Shown: in pieces, positions 1,006 through 17,168 of the stretch
Position numbering within the stretch: the first letter of the stretch is position 1
Layout: every line of letters starts with the position of its first letter
Source: a virus
Length of the DNA stretch: 25,041 nucleotides
Reading direction: 5' to 3' (one strand)
Virus record (IMG/VR): IMGVR_UViG_3300008459_000353
Span: 1 to 25,041 of that record
Position numbers and translations under genes: made by a program
Notes under the pieces: generated by a model
Told to the model about the DNA's origin: nothing
What the model saw: only the letters and a program-made list of their open reading frames with translations
The model's database searches: none

Positions 1006-3126
1006 ATGAGTCAACAGAATATTAATCAATATGTGTCTAACAACTGGAAATTGAGTCCAAGTTGGAATAATATAGACATGTCTTTATCTTCAGATGAAAT
1101 AGATTTCAATGAGGAGGTTGTTTTTTCAACAGAATTAATAGGAATTAATAATGGTAACAGATTACCTATACATTTTGATTTAAATAATCTTAACTCATCA
1201 CAACAACCAACTTTAAATTATGGTGATTTTTTGTCAGGGAATACTTTAGTCTCATTAAATTATTATAATCCTAATAATGAAGATTTATCTTGTTTTACTG
1301 GTGATAGTTTGTGTGATATTGGTTTAGTTGGTACTGATAATGGTTTAGTCCCTGAAATGTCAGGTGAAACAATACACTTTAGTATGGGATTGTATACAGG
1401 GTCAACTAAATGGGATAGATACCATTTTGATAGACGTACAAAATTAATTCAAATAACGGGATATACTAACAATGTTGATAGATTTTCAGGTAATACGAAA
1501 GAAACTGTATATAATATTGTTGACAAAGAATTATCAAGTTTTGGTTATTATAATCAATTATACGGAGGTTTCTACCAAGGATTTTTTAAATTATTTGGGT
1601 ATGATTACGAGACATTTCCAAATAGATGTAATAAGGGATGGTCTGTTGAAATGTTACTAAGAGCTAGACAAGAAGACCAATTTTCTCCAACATCGGCAGA
1701 AACAACATTAAATGAGGTATACCCAAGTAATGATAATACTTTTTTTTATTTTGGTACAAGAGCTGAAAACAAATATTACCATCACGCATCAGGTTCCCCA
1801 TCATCTGATTCAGGATATACTAGAGTTACTGAAATTTTAAGTGGATGTTTACATACATGTGCATGTTCGGATACTGGAGTAACTATTTCACGTTGTTTAG
1901 ATGATATATATGAACCTTTAATTTACACCAATCAACACAATGTTAATTGTAACTGTGGATGTTCAGAAAATGTTGTTCCTAATGATGATAAAAACCCTCT
2001 GCTTGACTCAATGTCAAATACTTTTTCACTTAGACTTTCAGGAGACCCAAAAAATCCAAAAGTATGTGTTAGAGTTCTTAAATTTACCGGAGGATGTGAA
2101 ACAACGGGTAGTTGTGAAAATACAGGAATTACATATACTACAGGATATACAATAACTAATTATTGTTCAAGTAAAAATATTTTTGATTACTGTTCGTCAA
2201 CTCAAACTTATTTAGATAAAGAACATTGGTTTTTAATTGATTGTGTTTGGGAACGTAATTCATATTATGATAACTGTGATTTATTATATCGAGGAGGGTT
2301 GGATTCAATAACGACATTTTATTATGTAAATTCATTGGCGGGAAATGCGGTTAGTTTAATTACAGTACCCTATACACAATCAGGTGCAACTCCCGCCGAA
2401 CAAATCGAAGTTGTTAATTTAAATGAAGAATGGTTAATTGAAAAAGACCAAAGATTAGGTTCTTTAAAAATATACATTAATGGTAGATTATTTTACGTTA
2501 TTAATGGGTTTGAAGAGGTAATACCTAGAGGTTTAAATACCGAGAAAGAAAAACAAATAGGTGTACCATTTAATATTGGTTGGGGTGGAGGTACACAAGG
2601 TTTGAGAGAAAGTTTAACTTTTTCCGCATGTCCCGAATCACTATCAGGTTTAACCTACCAACAAGACCCGGAATGTATGCCAAATGAAACATTATCGGGT
2701 ACATCTTTATCTTCTTTAACTACAAATATTTTAATTGAACCAAATTTTGCGGGTTCTTTTGACGGAGCAATATCTCAATTTAGAATGTATACCGAACCTT
2801 TAACGTATCCTGAAGTTGTTCATAATTTTGACATATTAAAAGGTAATTTTGGATTATTTGATTATAAATGTCCAAGTTGTTCTGATGTTGTTGTTAATGA
2901 TATTATTGGTGTTACTGTCGGTTCGGATATAATATTTTCATCCAATGAATTTTCAGGAATGACATTTAACCTTTATTACTATAAAGATTCTGGGGAACCA
3001 AGGTATGTCGTTGTTGAAAATGAAACTTTCCCATATACTATGGATACTCTTTCTGTACCAAATTGTTGTAGTAATAATTTTTATTTTTATATTATTGAAT
3101 TAGACCAAACATTCCTTTACACCTAA
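1006..3126 (+). CDS. Cysteine-rich virion surface protein with LamG/concanavalin-like domain
   Basis: This is a 706-residue protein with no signal peptide or membrane segment. Residues about 210-620 have the features of a LamG/ConA-like jelly roll: a GWSVEM strand at 211-216, SLKIYINGRLFYVINGF at about 485-501 (the typical strand around a bound edge), FNIGWGGG near 525, and FDGAISQFRMYTEPL at about 585-599, the classic closing strand of LamG folds in phage and secreted proteins. It carries more than 20 cysteines, clustered in an insertion in the domain (C281, C285, C287, C297, then C315, C317, C319) and in a KCPSC motif and a CC pair towards the C-terminus. The last 80 residues look like a separate beta-rich module. 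Such folds usually bind glycans or decorate capsids and fibres. The position next to the glycosyltransferase run supports a surface role. The fold call is from pattern only. Confidence 0.75.
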   Translation: MSQQNINQYVSNNWKLSPSWNNIDMSLSSDEIDFNEEVVFSTELIGINNGNRLPIHFDLNNLNSSQQPTLNYGDFLSGNTLVSLNYYNPNNEDLSCFTGDSLCDIGLVGTDNGLVPEMSGETIHFSMGLYTGSTKWDRYHFDRRTKLIQITGYTNNVDRFSGNTKETVYNIVDKELSSFGYYNQLYGGFYQGFFKLFGYDYETFPNRCNKGWSVEMLLRARQEDQFSPTSAETTLNEVYPSNDNTFFYFGTRAENKYYHHASGSPSSDSGYTRVTEILSGCLHTCACSDTGVTISRCLDDIYEPLIYTNQHNVNCNCGCSENVVPNDDKNPLLDSMSNTFSLRLSGDPKNPKVCVRVLKFTGGCETTGSCENTGITYTTGYTITNYCSSKNIFDYCSSTQTYLDKEHWFLIDCVWERNSYYDNCDLLYRGGLDSITTFYYVNSLAGNAVSLITVPYTQSGATPAEQIEVVNLNEEWLIEKDQRLGSLKIYINGRLFYVINGFEEVIPRGLNTEKEKQIGVPFNIGWGGGTQGLRESLTFSACPESLSGLTYQQDPECMPNETLSGTSLSSLTTNILIEPNFAGSFDGAISQFRMYTEPLTYPEVVHNFDILKGNFGLFDYKCPSCSDVVVNDIIGVTVGSDIIFSSNEFSGMTFNLYYYKDSGEPRYVVVENETFPYTMDTLSVPNCCSNNFYFYIIELDQTFLYT

Positions 3127-3162: not shown

Positions 3163-4407
3163 ATGAAAATTTTTATCCAAATTGCGTCTTATCGAGACCC
3201 ACAATTAATCCCAACAATTAAATCCGCAATAGATAACGCCAAACACCCTGAAAATTTAGTTTTCGCAATTGCAAGACAATTTAATGAGAGTGACGGATTT
3301 GATAATTTAGATGAATATCGAAATGATGAAAGGTTTAGAATTTTAGATATCCCATATCAAGAGTCTAAAGGAGCTTGTTGGGCTAGAAATCAAATACAAC
3401 AACTTTATCAAAAAGAAGAGTACACACTTCAAATAGATTCACATATGAGATTTGCTAAAGATTGGGATGTTGAAATGATTGGGATGATTAAACAACTACA
3501 AAAGAAAGGGTATAAAAAACCTTTATTAACAGGATACGTACCATCTTTTGACCCTGATGATGACCCTAACTCAAGAGTAATGGAACCGTGGAGAATGGTT
3601 TTTGATAGATTCATACCTGAAGGTGCGGTATTTTTCCTACCTGAAGTAATCCCCGGATGGCAAAACATGACGGAGCCAGTACCCGCAAGATTCTATTCCG
3701 CACATTATTGTTTCACATTAGGTAAATTTTCAAAAGAAGTCCAACATGACCCTGAATTTTATTTTCATGGGGAAGAAATATCTATAGCCGCAAGAGCTTA
3801 TACTCATGGGTATGATTTATTCCATATCCACAAAATTTTAATTTGGCATGAATATACCAGAAAAGGCAGAACTAAACAATGGGATGACGATAAAGATTGG
3901 GTAAATAAAAATGACTACTGTCATAAAAAGAATAGAAGTTTATTTGGAATGGATGGTGAAGAACCAATGAGTCACGGTAAATATGGATTTGGTAAAAAGA
4001 GAACATTAAGAGATTATGAAAAATATTCGGGATTACTTTTTTCTAAACGAGCCATCCAACAGTGGACAATTGACAAAAACTACCCACCAAATCCATATAA
4101 CTTTAATACAGAAGAAGAATGGATGAACTCATTTTCTTCAATATTTAAACACTGTATTGACATACAATACTCCCAAGTTCCTGAAAAAGATTATGATTTT
4201 TGGGTTGTGGCGTTCCATGATGAAAACGATGAGACACTTTTTAGGAAAGATGCCGACAAATCAGAGATTAGTCGTATGATGAATGACCCTGATGGATATG
4301 TTAAAATATGGAGAGAATTTAATATGGTTAGACAACCAAAATATTGGGTAGTTTGGCCGCATTCAGAATCAAAAGATTGGTGCGAAAGAATCACAGGAAA
4401 TTTATGA
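3163..4407 (+). CDS. GlcNAc-transferase-type glycosyltransferase (Skp1-type GlcNAc family)
   Basis: This 414-residue protein starts MKIFIQIASYRDPQL, the typical opening of the Pfam GlcNAc family (related to the cytosolic enzyme that adds GlcNAc to hydroxyproline in Skp1). Conserved stretches seen: CWARNQIQQLY at about 70-80, the metal/nucleotide-sugar site QIDSHMRF with D92-S93-H94, the ARFYSAHYCFTLGKF region, FHGEEISIAARAYTHGYDL from 201, and a HEYTRKGR segment. The fold should be GT-A with UDP-GlcNAc as the likely donor. The final ~110 residues form an extra domain of unknown role (WVVAFHDENDETLFR). It is the first gene of a seven-gene glycan block and its stop overlaps the next start (ATGA). 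A degenerate TATTAATA element abuts the ATG. Family membership is fairly sure; the acceptor is unknown. Confidence 0.85.
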   Translation: MKIFIQIASYRDPQLIPTIKSAIDNAKHPENLVFAIARQFNESDGFDNLDEYRNDERFRILDIPYQESKGACWARNQIQQLYQKEEYTLQIDSHMRFAKDWDVEMIGMIKQLQKKGYKKPLLTGYVPSFDPDDDPNSRVMEPWRMVFDRFIPEGAVFFLPEVIPGWQNMTEPVPARFYSAHYCFTLGKFSKEVQHDPEFYFHGEEISIAARAYTHGYDLFHIHKILIWHEYTRKGRTKQWDDDKDWVNKNDYCHKKNRSLFGMDGEEPMSHGKYGFGKKRTLRDYEKYSGLLFSKRAIQQWTIDKNYPPNPYNFNTEEEWMNSFSSIFKHCIDIQYSQVPEKDYDFWVVAFHDENDETLFRKDADKSEISRMMNDPDGYVKIWREFNMVRQPKYWVVWPHSESKDWCERITGNL

Positions 4408-5276
4408 TGGTGAATAATATATCTATTATAATTTACACTAATGAAACATATTATGATTTGTTAGAGTTTACTTTACCTTTTTTAATTGAAAATTTTAAAA
4501 AAATTAATATTAAAAAATATGTCGTGTCAAATAAAATTAAACAAAGTAGTCATTTTGAGGTGTCTGAGCAAATTGATTGTGGGGTTGAATTTTTAAGTAA
4601 TGGAGGACATTTTGAACAAACAATTAGTTACGCTTTAGAAAATATTAAAGAAGATTATATTTTATTTTTATGTGATGATTATTTGATAAAGTCTGAAGTT
4701 AAGTACGATATTTTAATGGGGGTTTTTAATTTTGTAATCGATAATGAAATTGACTATATGTCGTTAGGAACTCAAAAACATATGGAACCATTCATATTTG
4801 AGTGGGAAAATTTTAACATTGATTATAAAAAATATGGTTTACCCGATAAATGTTTATTTAAAACCGATGTTAACTGCCGTCATTTGTACTCTGTTCAACC
4901 TTGTATATGGAAAAAAAAATCTTTGATTGAGATTTTAAAAAATAATAAGAATATTACGTTACATGATTTGGATAATACAAACATAAAAGACCTTAATGGT
5001 AATTACCGAGAATTGGACGAAGAAAAGAATTTTATGTTTTATAAAAAAAATGAAAATTACAGAAATTATGATTTTAAAAATGTTTGTATACATTACCCTA
5101 TAATCTCATACCATGTCGATGAAAAACCAATAGACTCTGATTATTTTTTGTTGGACTATATTGAAATTGTACGTCATGGTAAATTTTTAGATGCGGAAGT
5201 TAACTCAAAATATATTTTAAATCAAAAATTAAACGAAAAATTAAATATTAAAAATAAACTTTTAAACTTTTTTTAA
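4404..5276 (+). CDS. Putative GT-A-fold glycosyltransferase
   Basis: I place the start at ATG 4404, which overlaps the TGA of the preceding gene, giving 290 residues; ATG 4407 is a near-equal alternative. An upstream in-frame ATG at 4344 lies inside the previous gene and adds a basic tail with no sense. After an ISIIIYTNE beta strand comes a helix, then YILFLCDDYLI with D91-D92, the usual metal-binding DDx position of GT2-like enzymes. The region around 135-180 is rich in aromatic residues and probably contains the acceptor site. The gene is very AT-rich and lysine/asparagine-rich like the next four. The stop TAA directly abuts the ATG of the methyltransferase gene. The enzyme family is inferred from the GT-A pattern, not from a recognised close family. 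Confidence 0.65.
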   Translation: MMVNNISIIIYTNETYYDLLEFTLPFLIENFKKINIKKYVVSNKIKQSSHFEVSEQIDCGVEFLSNGGHFEQTISYALENIKEDYILFLCDDYLIKSEVKYDILMGVFNFVIDNEIDYMSLGTQKHMEPFIFEWENFNIDYKKYGLPDKCLFKTDVNCRHLYSVQPCIWKKKSLIEILKNNKNITLHDLDNTNIKDLNGNYRELDEEKNFMFYKKNENYRNYDFKNVCIHYPIISYHVDEKPIDSDYFLLDYIEIVRHGKFLDAEVNSKYILNQKLNEKLNIKNKLLNFF

Positions 5277-5822
5277 ATGCCGGGAAATTGGGGTTATTTA
5301 GGTGAAGACACAAAGGAATATTTGTGTTCAAATTACGACAAAGATTGTACAATTTTAGATGTTGGATGCGGACATGGATTCTATTACAAATTATTAAAAG
5401 AGCACTTCAATAAATTTGACGCTGTAGAGATATGGGAACCTTACATTGAAGAATATAAATTAAGAGAAATGTATGATAACGTATATAATGTTAATATCAT
5501 GGATTTTGATTTTGAGTACTATGACATTATTATTATGGGAGATGTTTTAGAACATTTGTCAAGAGAAGACGCCTCAAAATTATTGAATAAAATTAAAGAT
5601 AAATGTAAAGAATTACTTGTTGTTGTACCGTATTATTTACCACAAGATGAGGTTTTTGGTAATAAATATGAGATACATTTACAACCTGATTTAGATGATA
5701 AAATAATGTCTGAAAATTATCCGATGCTTGAACTAATTAATTTCAATGGTAAAGATTTTAAAATCCCTATTGATATGGGTACCCATTACTATTACTACTG
5801 TGCATTCAAAAAGAAAATATGA
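5277..5822 (+). CDS. Class I SAM-dependent methyltransferase
   Basis: This 181-residue protein has the full signature of a small Rossmann-fold methyltransferase. Motif I is ILDVGCGHG with D28, G30, G32 and G34. The acidic residue at the end of beta 2 that binds the SAM ribose is in DAVEIWEP (E51). Motif IV is IIIMGDVLEHL, with D89 and the EH pair at 92-93 typical of the Methyltransf_11/23 group. The C-terminal strands (ELLVVVPYYLP) follow the family order. It acts in the cytoplasm. Sitting inside an overlapping glycosyltransferase run, it most probably O-methylates a sugar of the same glycan, for example as a capping step, although a protein or DNA target cannot be excluded. Its stop overlaps the next start (ATGA). 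Confidence 0.85.
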   Translation: MPGNWGYLGEDTKEYLCSNYDKDCTILDVGCGHGFYYKLLKEHFNKFDAVEIWEPYIEEYKLREMYDNVYNVNIMDFDFEYYDIIIMGDVLEHLSREDASKLLNKIKDKCKELLVVVPYYLPQDEVFGNKYEIHLQPDLDDKIMSENYPMLELINFNGKDFKIPIDMGTHYYYYCAFKKKI

Positions 5823-6700
5823 AATTACTTTTTAAATTTGATTTTGCAAATGGATGGGGAGATACTTTTTTAAGTCTATTTGATATTGTAAATTGTATAA
5901 ATTATGTAAAAGAAAATTACCCAAATTTTTATATAATATTTTTGATAAATGACAATAATTCTGTAGATACACTAAAGTTAGTTTTAGATTTTGAATTTTT
6001 CAATCAAATTTCTGACGAATTTAATGTTTTGTCTAAAGATAGTTTATTTAAAAATTTGAATGGTATTGGTTGGTATAAAAACGAAAAATTTAGTAGAATT
6101 TATTCAGGTAGAAATGAAGACACTAAAAATAATATACCGGGTATATTTGATGTTTTTTGCTTAGAATCTAATTTGAATGAAATAATAAATTTAAATATCC
6201 CATTTTTAAACTTCACGTTTAACGATATTGATGATAGAGTAGAATATTTCCCAATCTTTAACAAAAATTTAATTAATTTAGCTAATGATTTTATAAAAGA
6301 TAATTTTAACAGTGGATTTGAATCTATATATTTCAGAGCCTTAAATCCTTTAAATTATGAAAATATAGATTCATTTAAAAATAAATTATCTAAATTTGTA
6401 TCTAAAGAAAAAAAATATTTTATGTGTTCGAACTCTTCATTAGTAAAAAAAATAATATTAGATGAAGGGTATAATGTTATATTTTTTAGAAATTTTAAAG
6501 ACCACAATTTAGACCACATTCCTAATGGATTTACTGTTTTTGGTCAGACTGTAGAAGATGCGATTTTTCCAGTTACTGAAATGATTATATTAGGAGAATC
6601 ATCAAAAATAATATACTCTGGAGATATACAAAATGTAAGTTTATTTAATTGGTACGCAATAAACATAAAAAAAGTTAATTTAGAAAATATAATATTATGA
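5819..6700 (+). CDS. Putative GT-B-type glycosyltransferase (fucosyltransferase-like pattern)
   Basis: This is a 293-residue protein. The N-terminal FKFDFANGWGDTFLSLFD resembles the glycine-rich start of GT-B glycosyltransferases. In the C-terminal half, IYFRALN (R173) sits where fucosyltransferases of the GT11/GT23/O-FucT group have the donor-binding HxRRxD segment. It is followed by a KKYFMCSNSSLVKKI strand-loop-helix and by EMIILGESSKIIYSGDIQNV, which resembles the D-x-x-x-L-S-x-x-D-x-x-I-G-S segment of those enzymes. The match is by pattern and imperfect, so fucosyl transfer is a hypothesis only. It overlaps both its neighbours by 4 nt (ATGA at 5819 and at 6697), so it belongs to the same operon and pathway. 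Confidence 0.5.
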   Translation: MKLLFKFDFANGWGDTFLSLFDIVNCINYVKENYPNFYIIFLINDNNSVDTLKLVLDFEFFNQISDEFNVLSKDSLFKNLNGIGWYKNEKFSRIYSGRNEDTKNNIPGIFDVFCLESNLNEIINLNIPFLNFTFNDIDDRVEYFPIFNKNLINLANDFIKDNFNSGFESIYFRALNPLNYENIDSFKNKLSKFVSKEKKYFMCSNSSLVKKIILDEGYNVIFFRNFKDHNLDHIPNGFTVFGQTVEDAIFPVTEMIILGESSKIIYSGDIQNVSLFNWYAINIKKVNLENIIL

Positions 6701-7557
6701 ATATTTTAATTACAACATTAAGTTTAGGTTATAATTACACAAAAGATTATTGTCTACGAATGATTGAGGATGTCTTATCAATGACTGATATTGACATATA
6801 TATAACTACTGATTTTTCAAATTTAATTTATGATAAATTTGGGAAAAATGACAGGATTAAAATAAATGAAATTAATAGGGATGACTTAAAAATTAGAATC
6901 CCTATAGGTCCTAATAAAGGTGCGGATGATTTTAATTTTAATATGAGGTATCTTTGTTTAGAACATGTGTCAAATATTCAAGACTCAGTGGTAATTTTTA
7001 CAGATTGTGATAATTCATTTGATTGGTGGGATAAAGAAGAAGTCATTAAATTTATTGAATTAAATGAACAAAATGGATTTGATTTTTTTGGACCTAGAAC
7101 TGACTATAAACTAATTGATGTGTTTAAAGTTTTTAATACGAATTGTGCAATGAATCCATTAATTCATAATTTAGATTATGATAAATGTACTATTATGTGG
7201 CACAAATTATTTAATTACGATTTAGTAGATATGAATACTTACACTGTAATAGATTTTGAAAATCACATTTGGAAAGATTCTCCATTACCCGCGGAATATT
7301 TATTAATTTTTAACAACAAAAATAATAAGTTATATAAAATGGTTGAAAAGTGGAAATGGTTTCATGACTATTTGGTTAATAAGGATTATTCATTTGGTAC
7401 TTGGGCCGAAGGTTTTGAAATTGGAGTCTCAGCAAATTATGCCGGATTCAAACCAAAAGATATAACATTTACACATCCATTATGGAATAAAATTTTCACA
7501 CCAAATGGTTATAAGACAGGACCTAGAGGAGGAGTGGTACATGGGACTGAAAAATAA
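6697..7557 (+). CDS. GT-A-fold glycosyltransferase with DxD motif
   Basis: This is a 286-residue protein. VVIFTDCDNSFDWWDKE contains a clear DxD (D103-C104-D105) preceded by a hydrophobic strand, the metal/nucleotide-sugar site of GT-A enzymes. Downstream, EGFEIGVSANYAGF at about 245-258 resembles the acceptor/catalytic base region of such transferases. There is no membrane segment, so it is cytoplasmic. It starts inside the stop of the previous gene and its last 17 nt overlap the next gene, whose ribosome site lies within its coding sequence (the residues PRGG at the C-terminus are encoded by it). The sugar and acceptor are unknown; the GT assignment is fairly secure from the motif and the neighbours. 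Confidence 0.65.
   Translation: MNILITTLSLGYNYTKDYCLRMIEDVLSMTDIDIYITTDFSNLIYDKFGKNDRIKINEINRDDLKIRIPIGPNKGADDFNFNMRYLCLEHVSNIQDSVVIFTDCDNSFDWWDKEEVIKFIELNEQNGFDFFGPRTDYKLIDVFKVFNTNCAMNPLIHNLDYDKCTIMWHKLFNYDLVDMNTYTVIDFENHIWKDSPLPAEYLLIFNNKNNKLYKMVEKWKWFHDYLVNKDYSFGTWAEGFEIGVSANYAGFKPKDITFTHPLWNKIFTPNGYKTGPRGGVVHGTEK
7527..7532 (+). promoter_or_regulatory. Strong Shine-Dalgarno AGGAGG deciding the start at 7541
   Basis: AGGAGG lies 8 nt in front of ATG 7541 and inside the 3' end of the preceding gene. It is the only consensus-quality SD I see in the window and favours 7541 over the earlier in-frame ATG at 7505. Confidence 0.6.
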
Positions 7558-8494
7558 AATTGAAGAGATAATTATTTCGTATGACTACGGTTATAATGAT
7601 TGGTATGTAACTGAATTTTATAAATTTTTTCACAAAAAATTAAATGAAATTTTAAATGTTAATATCAAATTTGTCCCATTAAAAGATTTAGCGAAAAATA
7701 TGGGTAAAGAATTTAATGACCATAGTGATAGTCTTTTTACTTGGTTTAATTTAATAATTATGAACACTAAAACAGGTAAAATGTTTGTTCATTCATGGTA
7801 TGATTACGCCTTTACCACCTACTTGTATTGTGAAAAAAATAATTACAATGTTGTTAAATTTTCGGCATGTTCTAGTATAACTAATGAGTTTATAGAAAAT
7901 CATAAAAATGTACAACCTTCAATATACTATTTAGAAAATTGGAGTGACCAAAATTTAATTAATTTTAACCCAAGTGGCTCTAAAAAAAATAATTGTTATT
8001 TTGCGGGATGGTCTCATGGAAATCGAGAAAATATTTTAAATGAATTTAAAAAATATGATTTTTTTGACATTTTTTTAAAAGGTGGGGACAAACCAAATAA
8101 GACTAAAAAAGTTTATTATGACGACTTATCAAATTATAAATTTGGTCTCAGTTTAGACGGAGCTGCGGGGATATGTTATAGGGACATAGAGTTATTTGCG
8201 AGTGGGTCGTTAAATCTTAGACAACCAATTAAAATTAATACATACTCCCCAATTATTGAAGGAGTTCATTATGTGAATTTTGTAAATGAAGATTTAATAT
8301 CTTCAATTATAAAAGGGTATAACGTTGAGTCTGAAATTAAAGAAAATATCGAGAAAATTATAGACTTTTCAAGTACAAGTGAATACAATTTAATTATTGA
8401 TAACGCTAGAGAATGGTTTGAAAAAAATTGTTTACCTGATAATCAATTTAAAATTTTGTATTCCTTTTTAGATGAACTTGAAATATTATTTTAA
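7541..8494 (+). CDS. GT90/CAP10-like glycosyltransferase
   Basis: I start the gene at ATG 7541 because of the AGGAGG 8 nt upstream, giving 317 residues; ATG 7505 would add 12 residues. The C-terminal half has the hallmark of the CAP10/KDELC family (GT90): NYKFGLSLDG (D206), then IELFASGSLNLRQP, corresponding to the family's strand-DG...R...L-A-C/S-G-S-V-V-L-K-Q segment. An earlier CYFAGWSHGNRENIL corresponds to the family's fRG-like strand. Members transfer xylose, glucose or GlcUA-type sugars to proteins or polysaccharides. It is cytoplasmic, with no signal peptide. It overlaps the preceding gene by 17 nt and is followed after 2 nt by the next. The family call is moderately firm; the donor sugar is unknown. 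Confidence 0.7.
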   Translation: MGLKNKIEEIIISYDYGYNDWYVTEFYKFFHKKLNEILNVNIKFVPLKDLAKNMGKEFNDHSDSLFTWFNLIIMNTKTGKMFVHSWYDYAFTTYLYCEKNNYNVVKFSACSSITNEFIENHKNVQPSIYYLENWSDQNLINFNPSGSKKNNCYFAGWSHGNRENILNEFKKYDFFDIFLKGGDKPNKTKKVYYDDLSNYKFGLSLDGAAGICYRDIELFASGSLNLRQPIKINTYSPIIEGVHYVNFVNEDLISSIIKGYNVESEIKENIEKIIDFSSTSEYNLIIDNAREWFEKNCLPDNQFKILYSFLDELEILF

Positions 8495-8496
8495 AT

Positions 8497-10173
8497 ATGT
8501 CATTAATTACATTAGTTACAGGTCTTTGGGATTTAAAAAGAGACACATTGGGTGATGGGTGGGCGAGACCATTTAAATCACATTATTTAGAAAAATTTAA
8601 ACAATTATTATCTGTTAATAATAACTTAATAATATTTGGTGATAGTGAGTTAGAAAAATTTGTTTGGGAACATAGAACCCCTGAAAACACCCAATTCATA
8701 TTAAGGGAGTTAAATTGGTTTAAAAATGAGTTTTACACTAAAATTCAAAATATAAGAAAAAATCCTGACTGGTTTAATCAATCAGGGTGGTTACCTGAAT
8801 CCACCCAATCCAAACTTGAGATGTACAATCCATTAGTTATGTCAAAAGTTTTTTTATTAAATGATGCTAAAATTTTAGATAACTTCAATTCTAAAAATTT
8901 ATTTTGGATTGATGCAGGGATTACTAATACCGTACATATCGGATATTTTACTCATGATAATGTTTTAGAAAAAATATCTAAAAAAATTCAGAAATTTTCA
9001 TTTGTTTGTTTTCCTTATGATACCAATAATGAAATTCATGGATTTACCTACCCTAAAATAAATGAGTGGGCAAATAATGATGTAAAGTTAGTTGCTAGAG
9101 GTGGATTTTTTGGGGGACCTAAAGAAACCATAGGAGAAATAAATTCAATTTACTATGGATTAATGAATGACACCCTAACCCAAGGATATATGGGGACAGA
9201 AGAGTCAATATTTTCAATAATGGTGTATAAATACCCAAAACTAATTAACTATTTTGAGATTGAGTCAAACGGTTTATTAGGTACCTTTTTTGAAAATGCT
9301 AAAAATGAAACATTAGAAATTAAAAACAAATTACCATTAAATTTAACTAATAATTTTGATACAAATAAAACATCATTATACGTAATTGGTTTTAATAGTC
9401 CTAATCAATTAGAAACATTAATCAAGTCAATGATTAGTTATGATGAGGACTTTATAAATAAACCAAAAAAATATTTATTAAATAACTCTACAGATAGAAG
9501 TACAGATGAAAAATATATAGAAATTTGTAATCAGTTTAATTTTGAAATTATTTGGCCCAAAGAAAATCTTGGGATATGCGGAGGTAGACAATTTATTGCC
9601 GAACATTTTGAGAAAAGTGAAAATGATTACATGTTTTTCTTTGAGGACGACATGTTTTTTTACCCTAAAGAGGGTGAAGTTTGTAGAAATGGATTTAACA
9701 GACATATTAAAAATTTATATCAAAAATCTTTAAACATAATTAAAAATTATAATTTTGATTTTTTAAAATTGAATTATAGTGAGTTTTTTGGGGATAACGG
9801 AACACAGTGGAGTTGGTATAACGTACCCCAATCTTTCAGAGAACAACATTGGCCTGAAAAATCAAAATTACCTGAATTTGGTACTGACCCTAATTCTCCA
9901 AAAACTAAGTTCACCTCAATAACTTCATATGAGGGCATACCTGTTGCTACAGGTGAAATATTTTATTGTAATTGGCCTCAAGTGGTTTCAAAAAATGGGA
10001 ACGTAAAAATGTTTTTAGAAACAACTTGGACTCATCCGTATGAACAAACATGGATGAGTCACATGTTTCAAGAAACAATTAAAGGTAATTTAAATCCTGG
10101 ATTGTTGTTATTGACTCCAACAGAACATAATCGTTTTGAACATTACGATGGAAAACTAAGGAAAGAAAGTTAA
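8497..10173 (+). CDS. Two-domain glycosyltransferase: HtrL/YibB-like domain fused to a GT2-like domain
   Basis: This is a 558-residue protein with two parts. Residues 1 to about 290 follow the HtrL_YibB family pattern: ITLVTGLWDLKRDTLGDGW, the LIIFGDSELEKFVWEHR strand, YNPLVMSKVFLLNDA, LFWIDAG (D139, A140, G141) and GTEESIFSIMVYKYP. Residues about 300-558 begin anew with SLYVIGFNSPNQLETLIKS and carry NLGICGGRQFIAEHF and YMFFFEDDMFF (E383-D384-D385), the metal site of a GT2-like GT-A enzyme. A single chain with two transferase-type domains could add two successive sugars. It ends the glycan block; the next gene follows after 27 nt with its own promoter element. The acceptor is unknown. Confidence 0.75.
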   Translation: MSLITLVTGLWDLKRDTLGDGWARPFKSHYLEKFKQLLSVNNNLIIFGDSELEKFVWEHRTPENTQFILRELNWFKNEFYTKIQNIRKNPDWFNQSGWLPESTQSKLEMYNPLVMSKVFLLNDAKILDNFNSKNLFWIDAGITNTVHIGYFTHDNVLEKISKKIQKFSFVCFPYDTNNEIHGFTYPKINEWANNDVKLVARGGFFGGPKETIGEINSIYYGLMNDTLTQGYMGTEESIFSIMVYKYPKLINYFEIESNGLLGTFFENAKNETLEIKNKLPLNLTNNFDTNKTSLYVIGFNSPNQLETLIKSMISYDEDFINKPKKYLLNNSTDRSTDEKYIEICNQFNFEIIWPKENLGICGGRQFIAEHFEKSENDYMFFFEDDMFFYPKEGEVCRNGFNRHIKNLYQKSLNIIKNYNFDFLKLNYSEFFGDNGTQWSWYNVPQSFREQHWPEKSKLPEFGTDPNSPKTKFTSITSYEGIPVATGEIFYCNWPQVVSKNGNVKMFLETTWTHPYEQTWMSHMFQETIKGNLNPGLLLLTPTEHNRFEHYDGKLRKES

Positions 10174-10179
10174 TCAGTA

Positions 10180-10187
10180 TATTTATT
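10180..10187 (+). promoter_or_regulatory. Candidate phage late promoter, TATTTATT
   Basis: The element is followed by GTAAAAACAATAA and ATG 10201 (13 nt spacing). The downstream stretch nearly repeats the one after the element at 981-973 on the minus strand (GGTAAAAACATT), which suggests a shared initiation region rather than chance AT-richness. Confidence 0.45.
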
Positions 10188-10200
10188 GTAAAAACAATAA

Positions 10201-10569
10201 ATGGAATTTTATATTGGTCAAAATAGTAATTTACCTATTTTAAAAATGCAAGTCATTAAAGATGGTAAACATGATATTGACTCTATGTTACAACTTTTAG
10301 AAGAATCTGTTTTATATTTCTCAATGAAAGATACTAAAAACGGAAATTATAAAATATTAAATTCTTCGGCAGGTTTTGTGGAAAAAGTTTTTTTAGAACC
10401 AAATTCTGATGTCGAGTATTATCTTTATTATAAATTTTCAAAAAATGACACTTCTAAATCAGGTAGATTTGAGGGTGAGTTTTTATTAAAGTCTGAGAAT
10501 GGGACACTTTTGTTACCAATAAGGGATAGATTATTCATAAACGTTACTGAATCAACAATTATCACTTAA
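10201..10569 (+). CDS. Small BppU-N-like baseplate/fibre module protein
   Basis: This 122-residue all-beta protein starts MEFYIGQNSNLPILKMQV. The order of features (short polar strand with LPxLK, a segment predicted as YFSMKDTKNG, then EYYLYYKFSKNDTSKSGRFEGEF and a closing strand with LPIRDRLFINV) follows the N-terminal domain of phage baseplate upper proteins (BppU), an Ig-like attachment module ending in a y-x-V strand. It is clearly homologous to the first ~125 residues of the next gene (shared MEF-I--N--LP-LK, K-GR-E-E, and a closing P----F-NV strand). It may be a stand-alone version of the attachment module, for example a collar or adaptor for the adhesin that follows. The stop overlaps the next start (TAATG). 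Confidence 0.65.
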   Translation: MEFYIGQNSNLPILKMQVIKDGKHDIDSMLQLLEESVLYFSMKDTKNGNYKILNSSAGFVEKVFLEPNSDVEYYLYYKFSKNDTSKSGRFEGEFLLKSENGTLLLPIRDRLFINVTESTIIT

Positions 10570-12092
10570 TGGAATTTTTTATTAAAAAAAATGCGACGTT
10601 ACCATTGTTAAAGTTTGAAGTATTTCAAGACGGAAGAAGTGACTATAACAATTTACAAAATTTAAGTGGAGTTTCATCCACCTATTTAACTTTGGTTGAC
10701 CCATCAAATTCTGAAATAAAATTTGCCAGCAGACCGTGTTCAATTGTTACTGGTTATTCTGAATACGATGAAACACAAATAATTTACTTTGTTGAGTACC
10801 AATTTAAAAATAGTGAGACTAAAAAATTAGGTAGATATGAAGTTGAACTATCAGTAATTAATACTAACGGTACCGTAATATTTCCGTTAAAAGAAAAAGT
10901 TTTTGTTAATGTTATTGATAGCTTTTCAATAGACGGGTTTTCTTTTTCAAATAATTATGAGGTTGATTACCCGTGTTGTGAAGGTGCTCAACCCGACCCA
11001 ACACCATCAAATACCCCAACACAAACTCCAACACCGTCAAACACATCAACACCAAACCCATCACTAACCTCAACGCCTACGCAGACTACTACACCTTCCG
11101 TAACACCTACTAATACCGTTACACCTACTAATACCGTTACACCTACAAAAACTCCGACTCAAACTGTAACCACAACTCCAACAACCACGCCAACAAATAC
11201 TATAACACCAACAATAACTCCTACTAATAGTTCAACACCTCCTGTTAGTCCCTCAATGACTCCCACAAAGAGTGTAACTCCGACTATAACTACAACACCG
11301 TCAATTACTCCAACTACAACTGTAACCCCGTCAATAACTCCAACTACAACTATAACACCAACAGTTAGCCCATCTTACGTACCACCATCAGTGATTGTTT
11401 ACTCTTTTGACAATAGTGGTGTGGTTTATTCGTACAATTTTGGAACTTCTACAGTTACAGATTTGAATCCTCCTCAAAACCCGTCAATAACTACAAAAAA
11501 TTGGTTAGCATATGCAGATTCTAATGTTTTTTATACAAATAATGGTTATTCAGGATTTTACAAACAAAATAATGGAATTTCTAGTTCTACTACTTCAATA
11601 GGCATTGGTGGAGTTCCTGACCCTGGCTTTTGTGTGATACCTGGCCTGTTGTTAGCGTCAAGATATCATTTTTCCACAACACAAAAAACTATAGTTGGGG
11701 CACAAACAAGTGGATTTGGTGGGTCATTCACATTTAGAGGAAGACTACCGATAGATAGATATTGTAGTGGAGGTATGATTAGAAGTAATGGTTATAAATT
11801 AATAATAATAACAAGTAACTCATTAAATACATCATCTTGGATAACTCAATACCCATTCCAAAATACTTCTAATGATTTGGTTCCTGAATTTGAAATTAAT
11901 TTAACAAATATTATATCAAATCCTAGAGGGTTATTTGTTGCAAATAGTGAATTATATATTGCATCAAATTCAGGAGAAATTTACCATGTTCAAAAAACTT
12001 CACCATATACGATTACTTATGTTACTTCTATAGGAAGAACCGTCAATGGAATCGCTCAAAACTCAACAAATTGGACAATGCAATTTAGTTAA
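10569..12092 (+). CDS. Adhesin/fibre protein: BppU-N-like module, mucin-like Thr/Pro stalk, beta-rich head
   Basis: This is a 507-residue protein in three parts. Residues 1 to about 125 are a paralogue of the preceding protein (MEFFIKKNATLPLLKFEV). Residues 144-274 are an almost pure Thr/Pro/Ser/Asn/Val/Ile linker (repeats such as TPTNTVTPTNTV and TPSITPTTTVTPS) with few charged residues, expected to be an extended stalk and rich in hydroxyl acceptors. Residues 275-507 form a beta-rich domain opening VIVYSFDNSGVVYSYNFG, with repeated strand pairs (YSFDNS, WLAYADSNVFYTNN, LFVANSELYIASNSGEIYHV) typical of a beta-propeller, a likely receptor-binding head. There is no signal peptide, so it is made in the cytoplasm and is presumably a virion protein. 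It directly follows the glycosyltransferase block, which makes it the prime candidate acceptor. The linker is built on in-frame DNA repeats. Confidence 0.7.
   Translation: MEFFIKKNATLPLLKFEVFQDGRSDYNNLQNLSGVSSTYLTLVDPSNSEIKFASRPCSIVTGYSEYDETQIIYFVEYQFKNSETKKLGRYEVELSVINTNGTVIFPLKEKVFVNVIDSFSIDGFSFSNNYEVDYPCCEGAQPDPTPSNTPTQTPTPSNTSTPNPSLTSTPTQTTTPSVTPTNTVTPTNTVTPTKTPTQTVTTTPTTTPTNTITPTITPTNSSTPPVSPSMTPTKSVTPTITTTPSITPTTTVTPSITPTTTITPTVSPSYVPPSVIVYSFDNSGVVYSYNFGTSTVTDLNPPQNPSITTKNWLAYADSNVFYTNNGYSGFYKQNNGISSSTTSIGIGGVPDPGFCVIPGLLLASRYHFSTTQKTIVGAQTSGFGGSFTFRGRLPIDRYCSGGMIRSNGYKLIIITSNSLNTSSWITQYPFQNTSNDLVPEFEINLTNIISNPRGLFVANSELYIASNSGEIYHVQKTSPYTITYVTSIGRTVNGIAQNSTNWTMQFS
11103..11138 (+). repeat. 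Perfect 18-bp tandem duplication in the Thr/Pro stalk
   Basis: ACACCTACTAATACCGTT occurs twice in direct succession (11103-11120 and 11121-11138), and a third copy starts at 11139 (ACACCTAC) before diverging. The unit encodes six residues of the TPTNTV type and keeps the frame, so slippage changes stalk length without breaking the gene. Confidence 0.85.
11295..11354 (+). repeat. Near-perfect 30-bp tandem duplication in the Thr/Pro stalk
   Basis: Two successive 30-nt units (11295-11324 and 11325-11354) differ at only three or four positions (ACACCG/ACCCCG, ATTACT/ATAACT, ACTGTA/ACTATA). Each encodes ten residues of the TPSITPTTT type, again in frame. Confidence 0.8.
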
Positions 12093-12095
12093 CCA

Positions 12096-12127
12096 TTTGA
12101 CAAATCTTTTTTATTAGATTAAATTTA
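12096..12127 (+). promoter_or_regulatory. Candidate host-like (Bacteroidetes-type) promoter for DNA polymerase
   Basis: TTTG at 12096-12099 is followed after 20 nt by TAAATTTA at 12120-12127, close to the Bacteroidetes primary-sigma pattern (TTTG ... TAnnTTTG) with one mismatch in the -7 box. The TATTTATA element found in front of late-type genes is absent here, consistent with early or middle expression of the polymerase. Confidence 0.35.
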
Positions 12128-12141
12128 ACAACAAGGTAAAC

Positions 12142-12159
12142 TCCGACCTGCGATTCGGA
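12142..12159 (+). promoter_or_regulatory. GC-rich hairpin in the DNA polymerase leader (possible translational operator)
   Basis: TCCGA (12142-12146) can pair with TCGGA (12155-12159) around the 8-nt loop CCTGCGAT. The surrounding 22 nt (12141-12162) are about 64% G+C in a leader that is otherwise almost all A/T. The hairpin ends 24 nt before ATG 12184. T4/RB69 gp43 represses its own translation by binding a hairpin in this position, so an autoregulatory operator is plausible by analogy only. Confidence 0.4.
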
Positions 12160-12183
12160 AGCTAATATACCAAAATTTAATTT

Positions 12184-14979
12184 ATGATATCTAACGAAGA
12201 AATTGAAAATTTCCTACAAGGAAATGATGATGAAAAGTATATAATCGGTGTCGAATACGATTATGTTAAAGATTGTGTTTGGAAAATTATAGAACACCCT
12301 CTCCACGGAAAACAAATTAAAAAAGACACGTTTGTCCCATTTGCATGGGTTGGTGATTTACGTGGATTAAATTTTTACCAGTCCTCGAAAGCATTACAAA
12401 AAGAAGCAATGACTAAACATAAGATTGTCATTGAAAAATTGCGTACAGATGGTAATGATAGGTTGGAAAGAGGTCTAACTTATATGGTTAAATCTTTAAA
12501 TGGATACCGTTCTCTTATCCAATTCTTTAGAGATGGAGGTGTTGACCCTTGGGGTGAAAAAACAAAAGGATTAATTTTAATCTTACCTCCTGTTGAACAG
12601 TTTTTGGTCACAAAAGAAAAACGATTGTTCAAGGGGTTTGATGACTACAATAGTATCACAAGGTTTGTATTTGACTTGGAGACGACCGCATTGGAACCTA
12701 AAGACGGTCGTATCTTTATGATTGGAATGAAAACCAACAAAGGTTTTCGTGAAGTTATTGAATGCTCAACTGAAGAACAAGAAAGAGAAGGAATCATCAG
12801 ATTCTTCAATGCAATTGATGAAATAAAACCAAGTATTATCGCATCTTACAATGGATTCAACTTCGACTGGTTTTGGATATTTGAAAGAGCTAAAGCATTA
12901 AAGTTGGATATTAAAAAGATTGCAAAAACTTTAAATCCTGCTAATCCAATTAAACAATCTGAAAGTATGTTGAAGTTGGCAAACGAGGTTGAAAGGTTTA
13001 ACCAAACCTCAATGTGGGGTTACAATGTTGTGGATACATTACACGCAGTTAGGAGAGCACAAGCAATTAACTCATCTATTAAATCTGCGGGTTTGAAGTA
13101 TATAACCCAATATATTAAAGCTGAAGCCCCTGACCGTGTTTATATTGACCATACAGATATTGGTCCGTTCTATGCGAAGAAAGAAGAGTTTTGGTTGAAC
13201 ATCCAAAATGGTAAGTATAAGAAAGTGGGGATAGACCCCACAATTGACGAAGCTTGTTCAAAACACACAAACGTTTATATTAAAACAACAGGTGATGATT
13301 TGGTTGAGAGATATCTTGACGATGACTTGGAGGAAACTCTAACAGTGGATGAAGAATTCAATCAGGGCTCATTTCTACTTGCGTCTTTGGTACCAACGAC
13401 ATACGAAAGGGTTTCAACTATGGGAACGGCTACATTGTGGGAAATCCAAATGAGAGCGTGGTCTTACAAACATAAATTGGCAATTCCTGCTAAAAATGAA
13501 AAGACAGATTTTGTGGGAGGGTTATCACGACTACTTAAAGTAGGATTTTCAACCGATGTATTGAAACTTGACTTTTCGTCACTTTACCCATCAATTCAGT
13601 TGGTTCACGATGTATTCCCAACCTGTGATATTACAGGTGCGATGAAAGGAATGTTAAATTACTTCCGTAACACTCGTATTAAGTATAAAAACTTGGCAAA
13701 GGAATATCAGGATATTGACAAAAAACAAGCAACATCTTATGACCGTAAACAATTACCGATTAAGATTTTCATTAACTCAATGTTCGGGGCATTGTCCGCC
13801 CCACAAGTATATCACTGGGGTGACATGTATATGGGTGAACAGATTACTTGTACAGGACGACAATACTTACGTCAGATGTTACGTTTCTTTATGAAACGAG
13901 GTTACACCCCACTTGTATGTGATACGGATGGTATGAACTTCTCTTTACCTGAAGGTGGTGTGGATGGTAGAACTTATATCGGTAAGGGTAACAATTGGTT
14001 GGTTAAAGAAGGTAAGGAATATAAGGGTTATGATGCGGATGTTGCTGAGTTTAACGATATGTTTATGAAAGGTGCTATGGGTCTTGACTGTGATGGAACT
14101 TGGAAATCCTGTATGAACATTGCTCGTAAGAACTATGCAACAATGGAACACAACGGAAAGATTAAACTTACAGGTAACTCAATCAAGAGTAAGAAACTAC
14201 CTTTGTATATTGAGGATTTCTTGGATAAAGGAATTAAGATGTTGTTAGAAGGTAATGGACAAGATTTTGTTGAGTGGTATTATGAATACTTGGAAAAGAT
14301 TTATAATAAACAAATTCCACTTATGAAGATAGCCCAAAGAGCAAAGGTTAAATTATCTATTGATGATTATAAGAAACGTTCAAAAGAAAAAACCAAAGCT
14401 GGTAATGAAATGTCACGTATGGCCCATATGGAATTGGCTATGAGAGATGGTATTGCGGTTAGTTTGGGGGATGTAATATTCTATGTAAATAATGGTATTA
14501 AAGCATCACACGGAGATGTTCAAAAAGTTAACCGACCTAAGAAGGGATGGACACAATCTGATTTGGATAATATGATGGAAGGGTATGGTAAAATACCTAA
14601 TGAAATGGTTGAATCATACGTAAAACTTAATTGTTATCGTTTAGACCCAACAGAAGTTGAAAATAATCCAAATATGTTGGGAGAATACAATGTCCCAAGA
14701 GCTGTAGTGACATTTAACAAACGTATTGAACCTTTATTAATTGTGTTTGGTGAAGAAGTTAGAAATAATCTAATTGTTGATGACCCAAGTAAACGTGGAT
14801 TATTTACAAAAGAACAATGTAAATTAATCAATGGTGTTCCATTTGAACCTGAAGACCAAGATAGTATTGAGGATTTATTAACAATTACTGAACAAGAAAA
14901 AATATATTGGGAAAAACGAGGAATTGACCCTGAGTATATCTATGAATTTGCAGAAGAAGGGTGGGAAGAAATGGTGTGA
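12184..14979 (+). CDS. 43: Family B DNA polymerase with 3'-5' exonuclease
   Basis: This 931-residue protein is close to the T4 gp43 length. The exonuclease ExoI motif is RFVFDLETTALEP (D164, E166), and SYNGFNFDWFW matches ExoII. Polymerase motif A is LDFSSLYPSI (D463 with SLYPS at 466-470), motif B is KIFINSMFGALSAP (K527, N531, S532, G535), and motif C is CDTDGMNF (D580, D582). The distance from motif A to B is only about 64 residues, shorter than in T4/RB69, so the palm insertion and fingers are compact. It replicates the phage genome in the cytoplasm with clamp and helicase partners not in this window. Codon use is visibly less AT-biased than in the glycosyltransferase genes. It has its own leader with a hairpin and a host-like promoter. 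The gene number is by analogy to T4. Confidence 0.95.
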   Translation: MISNEEIENFLQGNDDEKYIIGVEYDYVKDCVWKIIEHPLHGKQIKKDTFVPFAWVGDLRGLNFYQSSKALQKEAMTKHKIVIEKLRTDGNDRLERGLTYMVKSLNGYRSLIQFFRDGGVDPWGEKTKGLILILPPVEQFLVTKEKRLFKGFDDYNSITRFVFDLETTALEPKDGRIFMIGMKTNKGFREVIECSTEEQEREGIIRFFNAIDEIKPSIIASYNGFNFDWFWIFERAKALKLDIKKIAKTLNPANPIKQSESMLKLANEVERFNQTSMWGYNVVDTLHAVRRAQAINSSIKSAGLKYITQYIKAEAPDRVYIDHTDIGPFYAKKEEFWLNIQNGKYKKVGIDPTIDEACSKHTNVYIKTTGDDLVERYLDDDLEETLTVDEEFNQGSFLLASLVPTTYERVSTMGTATLWEIQMRAWSYKHKLAIPAKNEKTDFVGGLSRLLKVGFSTDVLKLDFSSLYPSIQLVHDVFPTCDITGAMKGMLNYFRNTRIKYKNLAKEYQDIDKKQATSYDRKQLPIKIFINSMFGALSAPQVYHWGDMYMGEQITCTGRQYLRQMLRFFMKRGYTPLVCDTDGMNFSLPEGGVDGRTYIGKGNNWLVKEGKEYKGYDADVAEFNDMFMKGAMGLDCDGTWKSCMNIARKNYATMEHNGKIKLTGNSIKSKKLPLYIEDFLDKGIKMLLEGNGQDFVEWYYEYLEKIYNKQIPLMKIAQRAKVKLSIDDYKKRSKEKTKAGNEMSRMAHMELAMRDGIAVSLGDVIFYVNNGIKASHGDVQKVNRPKKGWTQSDLDNMMEGYGKIPNEMVESYVKLNCYRLDPTEVENNPNMLGEYNVPRAVVTFNKRIEPLLIVFGEEVRNNLIVDDPSKRGLFTKEQCKLINGVPFEPEDQDSIEDLLTITEQEKIYWEKRGIDPEYIYEFAEEGWEEMV

Positions 14980-16457: not shown

Positions 16458-17168
16458 TCAATCTGACTTTTTAGTTTTAGATAAATAAAGTTCATTTATG
16501 AACTTCCAATTAATAGCATCCCAAAAATTTGTAATGTACTCATCTCTTTTGTTTTGATACTTTAAATAATATGCGTGTTCCCATAAATCTAATCCCAATA
16601 TTGGGAATCCTCCTCTATCAAATATATTCATTAAAGGGTTATCTTGATTTTGAGTTGACATTACTTTTAACCTACCACTTTTTGTAATTACTAACCAAAC
16701 CCATCCTGACCCAAATCTATTTTTTGCAACTGATTCAAATCTATCTTTAAATTCTCTGTAAGAACCAAAATCTTTTTTTATTTTTTCTAAAACTTCACCA
16801 AAAGGTTTTTGTGGGGATGGGGATAACATTTTCCAAAACAATGCGTGGTTAAATGCCCCTCCTGCGTTATTTCTAATGATTGTATTGTACTTTGAAATTT
16901 TTCTAACAATATTTTCCAACTCAACGTCACCGTAGTCTTTTTTTCTAAGAGCTGAGTTTAATTTTTTTACGTACCCTTTATAATGTTTTTGATAATGAAA
17001 CTTCATTGTCTCAGGGTCAATAAATCTACGTAGAGACGCATAACCATATGGTAGTTTATCAATACCTATGGTTCTCATTTCATTAATAAAATACTTAGTT
17101 TCAGGTAAAACTACTTCTCCTGTTATTTTTTTTTGTAAAGATTCTGATAATAAATTAAGTGATTTCAT
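16458..17168 (-). CDS. sodA: Iron/manganese superoxide dismutase, manganese-type signature, with N-terminal extension
   Basis: This 236-residue enzyme converts superoxide to H2O2 and O2. All four metal ligands of the Fe/Mn family are present: H58 in MKFHYQKHYKGYV, H108 in NNAGGAFNHALFW, D194 and H198 in GLDLWEHAYYLKYQNKR, plus H62 and Y66 of the active-site gate. G104 (where Fe enzymes usually have Gln) and Q175 in QNQDNPLM are the residues that mark Mn-type enzymes such as E. coli SodA; FGSGWVWLV is also conserved. The catalytic domain begins near residue 38 (KLPYGYASLRRFIDPETM), so there is an extra N-terminus of about 35 residues starting MKSLNLLSES. I start at ATG 17168 because the upstream frame overlaps the helicase gene and a TATTTATT element precedes 17168 by 4 nt. 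Phage SODs are uncommon; its place among morphogenesis genes is odd. Confidence 0.9.
   Translation of the reverse strand: MKSLNLLSESLQKKITGEVVLPETKYFINEMRTIGIDKLPYGYASLRRFIDPETMKFHYQKHYKGYVKKLNSALRKKDYGDVELENIVRKISKYNTIIRNNAGGAFNHALFWKMLSPSPQKPFGEVLEKIKKDFGSYREFKDRFESVAKNRFGSGWVWLVITKSGRLKVMSTQNQDNPLMNIFDRGGFPILGLDLWEHAYYLKYQNKRDEYITNFWDAINWKFINELYLSKTKKSD

Follow-up and report, generated by a model that had tools for sequence, protein, structure and literature searches.

Why would a phage set a run of sugar-transferring enzymes directly beside a Thr/Pro-rich protein of its own? The question is raised by positions 3163 to 12092 of a 25,041-nucleotide stretch of viral DNA (IMG/VR record IMGVR_UViG_3300008459_000353, positions 1 to 25,041; the whole stretch is referred to here as the window). 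A preliminary description, made from the letters alone, had proposed that the phage builds a glycan on its own Thr/Pro stalk, and several comparative tests now support that prediction. We consider it likely that the encoded enzymes form a system for mucin-type O-glycosylation of proteins in the cytosol, in which the elaboration cassette is swappable. The sugar chains are probably carried by the phage's own Thr/Pro stalks, comparable to the mucin coating of animals and parasites. The support comes from the family of the first enzyme (GT60), from the co-occurrence of this enzyme with stalk genes together with negative controls, from the absence of membrane proteins, and from bacterial loci that join a stalk gene to the same enzymes.

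The locus has fixed first and last genes, here called brackets, and a middle that is swapped wholesale between sister phages. The open reading frames (ORFs) of the preliminary description were all recovered in place and on the same strand, but it had missed the exchange of the cassette, which is the main feature of the run. The features are as follows.

3163..4407, + strand: GT60 (PF11397) N-acetylglucosamine (GlcNAc) transferase, left bracket, proposed initiating enzyme (profile match, DxH motif)
4404..5276, + strand: cassette gene D, putative transferase; variable, without a family match
5277..5822, + strand: cassette gene E, class I S-adenosylmethionine (SAM) methyltransferase, possible sugar O-methyl cap (profile match)
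5819..6700, + strand: cassette gene F; variable, without a family match
6697..7557, + strand: cassette gene G, GT-A-like, with invariant D103xD105 (alignment of relatives)
7541..8494, + strand: cassette gene H, GT-B fold glycosyltransferase (predicted structure; start inferred from the ATG at 7541)
8497..10173, + strand: HtrL_YibB-GT2 fusion, right bracket (profile matches)
4408..8505, + strand: exchanged block (DNA similarity to sister phages ends at 4405-4408 and returns at 8506-8507)
10201..10569, + strand: small conserved protein, present in 60 of 68 loci and paralogous to the N terminus of the stalk protein
10569..12092, + strand: stalk protein with a conserved N-domain, a Thr/Pro stalk and a variable C-terminal head
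10998..11375, + strand: Thr/Pro/Ser stalk, proposed O-glycan acceptor (126 amino acids: 55 T, 28 P, 15 S)
1006..3126, + strand: conserved virion-type protein upstream of GT60; Thr/Pro stalk in many relatives, none in the window copy

A conserved enzyme pair brackets the locus

The product of the first gene matched the PF11397 GlcNAc family in two segments (E value of 2e-65; 221.8 bits versus a cutoff of 21) and also PHROG 24687, a glycosyltransferase (4e-172), which bears out its earlier assignment as a GlcNAc-type enzyme. PF11397 corresponds to CAZy family GT60, which contains the cytosolic Skp1 enzyme Gnt1 and the Trypanosoma cruzi polypeptide alpha-GlcNAc-transferase (PMC6939170); the preliminary description had already noted that this family has cytosolic members that glycosylate proteins. 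The T. cruzi enzyme initiates mucin O-glycans on Thr (PMC3769586), and the DxH motif and glycosylation of polypeptide Ser/Thr are common to GT60 and its sister family GT27 (PMC7185993). The motif (D92-S-H94) was invariant in all 20 aligned phage enzymes. By analogy with the family, we infer that the phage enzyme would transfer alpha-GlcNAc to Thr. The hydroxyproline (HyPro) route known for Skp1 was ruled unlikely here because the accompanying prolyl hydroxylase is mostly absent: PF13640 was found in 1 of 14 records, far from the cassette. That record carries two 2-oxoglutarate-Fe(II) oxygenase genes of the prolyl-hydroxylase type (G002:C1:288908-291681).

At the opposite end, the HtrL_YibB part of the fusion, as described previously, was well supported (2e-14); the match of the second half to GT2 was weak (0.03). 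With the window GT60 as query, IMG/VR yielded 253 relatives, and both bracket genes were present, in unchanged order, in 68 of the 80 relatives that were fetched. Identity to the window proteins across these 68 loci had a median of 76% for GT60 (72 to 91%) and 64% for the fusion. The outer pair was found in about 70 independent contigs as well as in cultured phages, which is not a chance association. PDB sequence searches with GT60, D, G, H and the fusion gave chance-level matches only.

The middle of the locus is exchanged between sister phages

Fully bracketed loci had one to eight genes between the brackets, and one 295-kb record had 22; the middles of the 68 loci comprised 47 distinct length signatures and 41 gene families. 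Compared with the sister phage L004, DNA similarity of 85% ended at position 4408, one base past the GT60 stop codon, and returned at 8506, past the first nine bases of the fusion gene. The breakpoints were 4408/8506 for L006 and 4405/8507 for L076, while the polymerase regions still showed 83 to 85% DNA identity. The middle genes are regarded as variable because viral scans outside the window's own contig found no relatives of D or H, one of F and three of G, versus 253 for GT60; two diverged homologues of gene D were present among the cassette proteins. Close relatives should therefore carry different outer glycans. ATGA stop/start overlaps at three junctions (4404-4407, 5819-5822 and 6697-6700) suggest that the genes are translationally coupled.

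The stalk-protein stretch was swapped as well. Similarity to L004 ended at 10981, just before the stalk, and mostly returned at 11885. Judged from these breakpoints, the stalk and the head of the fiber protein (10981-11885) are a putative second exchange module, independent of the sugar cassette.

Enzymes of the cassette

The assignment of gene E as a SAM methyltransferase was confirmed by a profile match (1e-8), and that of gene G as a DxD glycosyltransferase was supported by the conservation of D103xD105 in 12 relatives. Structure prediction, suggested in the preliminary description, succeeded for gene H (pLDDT, predicted local distance difference test score, of 88): the model is a GT-B transferase that resembles A075L of chlorovirus PBCV-1, exostosins and the peptide GlcNAc-transferases GtfA and SdgB. 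It also resembles CAP10/GT90 proteins of giant viruses, consistent with the CAP10-like enzyme predicted at about 7.5 to 8.5 kb. The model of gene F failed (pLDDT of 46) and was not used. The labels GT-A for gene D and GT-B-like for gene F are unproven because neither product had a family match or a usable fold model.

Pfam scans of 88 cassette representatives identified GT10 fucosyltransferases (seven), FkbM methyltransferases (five) and GT25 enzymes (four), together with GT2 types, GT34, GT7C, GT11, a PLOD-type glycosyltransferase, a CmcI-type rhamnosyl O-methyltransferase, UDP-galactopyranose mutase, a carbamoyltransferase and HAD proteins, the last also as a fused HAD-nucleotidyltransferase in the L031 cassette. 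The 22-gene, 17-kb cassette of phage G002 (G002:C1:61214-78710) carried GT11, GT25, GT61, a nucleotidyltransferase, a sugar epimerase/dehydratase, a uridine-kinase-type protein and a class II aldolase, and with it this phage may make its own nucleotide sugar. As predicted from these families, the cassette gene set is an oligosaccharide toolkit; none of the listed families is a DNA-base enzyme. Membrane segments were found in 0 of 178 cassette proteins at three thresholds, compared with 7 to 15% of ORFs in phage G001 and 18 to 25% in the bacterial flanks. By this result, routes of the usual lipid-linked O-antigen, capsule or Gtr type are disfavored, and protein modification in the cytosol is the better fit.

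Stalk proteins as candidate acceptors

The Thr/Pro/Ser stalk of the 10569-12092 product was confirmed, although it measured 126 residues (residues 144 to 269) and not the 131 reported earlier. Defining a stalk ORF as one with at least 40 T, P or S residues in 60, we found such ORFs to be concentrated in the locus interval, with 16 of 106 ORFs versus 14 of 817 elsewhere in five records (odds ratio of 10, P = 1e-8), and a stalk was seen in 42 of 52 distinct loci. The search for the same neighborhood in other phages that had been proposed earlier was positive. The stalks are Thr rich (T 45%, P 21%, S 7.2%, versus a background of 8.0, 4.5 and 7.2), with Ser at the background level. All nine GT60 jumbo records examined had Thr/Pro stalks, with 4 to 14 stalk ORFs per GT60 phage.

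The association was also present when records of at least 15 kb were chosen solely by a TPTxTPTxTPT pattern and controls by the reversed pattern. GT60 was found in 17 of 61 pattern records versus 1 of 45 controls (P = 4e-4), the sole positive control also having a stalk, and above 40 kb in 15 of 38 versus 1 of 18 (P = 0.01); records were counted as independent in these tests, although they are only partly so. The TPTxTPTxTPT-type repeat was absent from 11 large phages without GT60, RaK2 and CBB among them, and there were no stalk ORFs in CBB or in the first 400 kb of Atu_ph07 (maximum of 29/60). Giant Thr/Pro stalk genes also occurred in additional clusters far from the glycan locus (G001:277981-293788, G003:142615-152498 and, in Xanthomonas phage XacN1, XacN1:124048-133104), and these GT60 phages seem, from their gene content, to carry many mucin-like proteins.

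Other acceptor-related labels fared less well. The two proteins downstream of the fusion had been called BppU-N-like, for which neither Pfam nor PDB gave support, even with a 27-member profile. The 1006-3126 protein, described as a LamG protein and as an alternative acceptor, matched no Pfam or NCBIfam family, and it is the weaker acceptor candidate here because the window copy has no Thr/Pro stretch (at most 21/60).

Relatives in cultured phages and bacteria

Xanthomonas phage XacN1 and Stenotrophomonas phage RAS14 had the same bracket (GT60, 45 to 50% identity; fusion, 40 to 43%) with a carbamoyltransferase inside it, and they carried 14 and 11 stalk proteins, respectively. Both belong to lineages diverged from that of the window, with DNA polymerases barely alignable to the window one (27% over 255 amino acids). 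The main text of the XacN1 report places its structural genes closest to those of Rak2-like phages and describes at least two glycoproteins detected in the virion, with phage enzymes suggested by its authors as the makers (PMC5852040).

Few Bacteroidota carry GT60: of 396 genomes sampled, the starting genome alone gave a full match, the other matches being weak and partial. In the isolate Jiulongibacter sediminis and in a Saprospiraceae bin, GT60 adjoins HtrL-GT2 beside a divergent Thr/Pro/Ser stalk gene (L145:8944-15142 and L141:8507-13089, both chromosomal), and the J. sediminis locus also contains a carbamoyltransferase. Judged by eye, the N termini of the bacterial stalk proteins (LNRRLALRELFLGSS and LNRRKALKTILGASS) appear to be twin-arginine translocation (Tat) signals, and one of the two proteins has a type IX sorting domain at its end. 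Because the Tat pathway exports proteins that have folded in the cytosol beforehand, a Tat signal on the stalk fits glycosylation in the cytosol before export. Beyond the stalk gene, L145 additionally has a second, diverged GT60-like gene (306 amino acids, 32% identity).

Other GT60 relatives lie in type VI secretion system (T6SS) loci of Burkholderiales and Neisseriaceae, with TssF, TssG, gp25-like TssE and VgrG as neighbors (L151, L152, L154, L155 and L156). In two cases a nearby VgrG had a Pro/Thr-rich tail, of the (TP)n or (PPTE)n type in L154 and L152. A further relative, from a Sphingomonas bin, is in a contractile-injection-like locus (L158) with a Thr/Pro-rich protein of 1,205 amino acids. 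In L151, a standalone protein directly after GT60 (11375-12211) was 63% identical over 275 amino acids to part of the HtrL-GT2 fusion, visibly the GT2 half; the fusion halves therefore also occur apart.

Proposed pathway and alternative explanations

As the phage tail and fiber proteins are made in the host cytosol, GT60 would move GlcNAc from UDP-GlcNAc to the Thr hydroxyls of (TPTx)n stalks, as its family suggests. The HtrL-GT2 fusion would then add the next one or two sugars to give a common core, a step that we infer from the invariant co-occurrence of the two enzymes. This core would be extended and capped by the products of the cassette, which here comprise two to four further transferases plus a methyltransferase, and its outer part would differ between sister phages, in which the whole middle block is replaced. 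Such a changeable sugar coat on long stalks could give protection from proteases and stiffness, and it could allow evasion of, or binding to, molecules that recognize surface glycans. Of the two roles suggested in the preliminary description, shielding of the stalk and mimicry of host glycans, either may apply. A broader proposal, which we hold tentatively and place slightly on the doubtful side, is that GT60 and HtrL-GT2 form a general prokaryotic pair for cytosolic mucin-type O-glycosylation that acts on jumbo-phage fiber stalks, on Tat-exported bacterial stalks and perhaps on machines like T6SS or extracellular contractile injection systems. HtrL/YibB would then be the second-sugar transferase, and the phage cassette would be a serotype-like locus through which sister phages differ in their displayed sugars.

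Several points weigh against stalk glycosylation. The donor and acceptor of GT60 are carried over from distant eukaryotic members, and the stalk glycan of the window phage is predicted from its genes. No stalk was present within the fetched stretch in 10 of 52 distinct loci, and stalk records without GT60 exist (44 of 61, many of them fragments). The strict TPTx motif is absent from RAS14/CM1, in which the stalks are Ser/Pro rich, and the glycosylated XacN1 proteins are unnamed in the main text of that report (PMC5852040). The linkage between stalk and GT60 could reflect shared lineage rather than shared function. Finally, a PHROG labeled beta-glucosyl-HMC-alpha-glucosyltransferase was a weak match for the GT2 half of the fusion (E value of 9e-4).

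One alternative is that the cluster remodels a host surface polysaccharide during infection and thereby excludes competing phages. Polymorphic glycosyltransferase clusters of jumbo cyanophages have been published as host O-antigen modifiers (PMC7824862), and GT25 and FkbM types are found in lipopolysaccharide loci as well. We regard this explanation as improbable, since a cassette free of membrane proteins has no flippase, polymerase, lipid-linked initiating enzyme or Gtr anchor, the first enzyme is from a protein-glycosylating family, the link to Thr stalks is strong, and the bacterial version adjoins a single stalk gene and not a polysaccharide locus.

Virion proteins could also be glycosylated with the capsid or tail tube as the chief acceptor, as in mycobacteriophage Che8; in Che8 and in Rita, the major capsid and tail proteins are reported to bear glycans (Freeman et al. 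2023, as cited in PMC11256854 and PMC12619734), and the unnamed XacN1 glycoproteins would be compatible with this. It is unlikely to be the main role here, because the occurrence of GT60 follows that of Thr/Pro stalk genes, among phages and also in bacteria, which have no virion. A further alternative is that the sugars are added to hypermodified DNA of the phage to shield it from restriction. Phage enzymes are known to glycosylate DNA (reviewed in PMC12619734), and the weak PHROG match would correspond to this, but such a role is very improbable here given the carbamoyl-, fucosyl- and O-methyltransferase diversity swapped among close relatives, the position of the locus amid virion genes, the GT60 family and its stalk linkage, the same enzyme pair on bacterial chromosomes and the lack of a DNA-base enzyme among the listed cassette families. 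Seroconversion and DNA modification are ranked low, and glycosylation of the phage's own stalks remains the preferred explanation.

Other features of the window

The window is from a freshwater jumbo phage whose tail is contractile, and it contains a tail sheath gene and a family B polymerase gene. The whole of its sequence is contained in an IMG/VR contig of 55.9 kb. A phage-encoded Fe/Mn superoxide dismutase (NCBIfam E value of 6e-58) lies between the neck and helicase genes and is kept at 53 to 66% in related loci.

20815-23991: tail sheath gene
12184-14979: family B polymerase gene
16458-17153, - strand: Fe/Mn superoxide dismutase gene

Comparison with known systems

If stalk glycosylation is correct, mucin-type O-glycosylation would extend to bacterial viruses and some bacteria, and phages would have a switchable sugar coat by which the outer chemistry of the virion is altered while its proteins are unchanged. 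It would bear on how phages adsorb, how they persist in the environment and how predators or immunity clear them, and it would give the uncharacterized HtrL/YibB domain a testable role. XacN1, for which proteomics data are already public (PXD008065), would allow an immediate test of virion glycosylation. In the open-access literature, we found nothing on GT60 in phages, on its pairing with HtrL-GT2 as a bracket, on the swapped cassette, or on phage enzymes that glycosylate mucin-like stalks of phages. Four core glycosyltransferase orthogroups are listed in the moraphage paper for jumbo phages that infect freshwater Bacteroidota, with DNA, host and virion all left as possible targets.

In chlorovirus PBCV-1, the glycan is N-linked and on the capsid protein, and its capsid glycosylation is not known to involve GT60. 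That system shares with the window virus-encoded cytosolic assembly of a glycan by multiple enzymes, including the A075L likeness of gene H, but it belongs to a eukaryotic algal virus. Virion glycosylation by phage-encoded glycosyltransferases was already known for the capsid and tail of Che8 (Freeman et al. 2023, via PMC11256854 and PMC12619734), and Che8 and Rita resemble the window phage in having phage glycosyltransferase genes and, as predicted for the window phage, glycans on virion proteins and a glycan shield. In contrast, capsid and tail subunits are modified there, and the citing passages mention neither a GT60 bracket nor a swappable cassette, nor stalks of the mucin type. The loci of XacN1 and RAS14/CM1 match the window in the bracket, which encloses a carbamoyltransferase gene there, and in their many Thr/Pro/Ser stalks, although the main text of the XacN1 account names two glycosyltransferases only and no cassette.

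The GT60 enzymes of T. cruzi and Dictyostelium share with the phage enzyme the family, the DxH motif and a protein acceptor (predicted for the phage), and the T. cruzi mucin acceptors are Thr/Pro, as proposed for the phage stalks. In the Skp1 pathway, a bifunctional two-domain glycosyltransferase acts next (PMC6939170), a further likeness to the phage locus. Unlike the phage system, however, the T. cruzi enzyme is located in the Golgi, and the Skp1 enzyme, which is cytosolic, is HyPro dependent. Finally, the phage locus differs from bacterial O-antigen and capsule loci in having no flippase, polymerase, lipid-linked initiation or membrane proteins, but it shares with them conserved flanks, a swapped glycosyltransferase middle and the same enzyme families. 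Overall, if our interpretation is correct, the locus would be a phage analogue of bacterial serotype loci, in which the initiation core is fixed and the elaboration cassette is exchanged freely.

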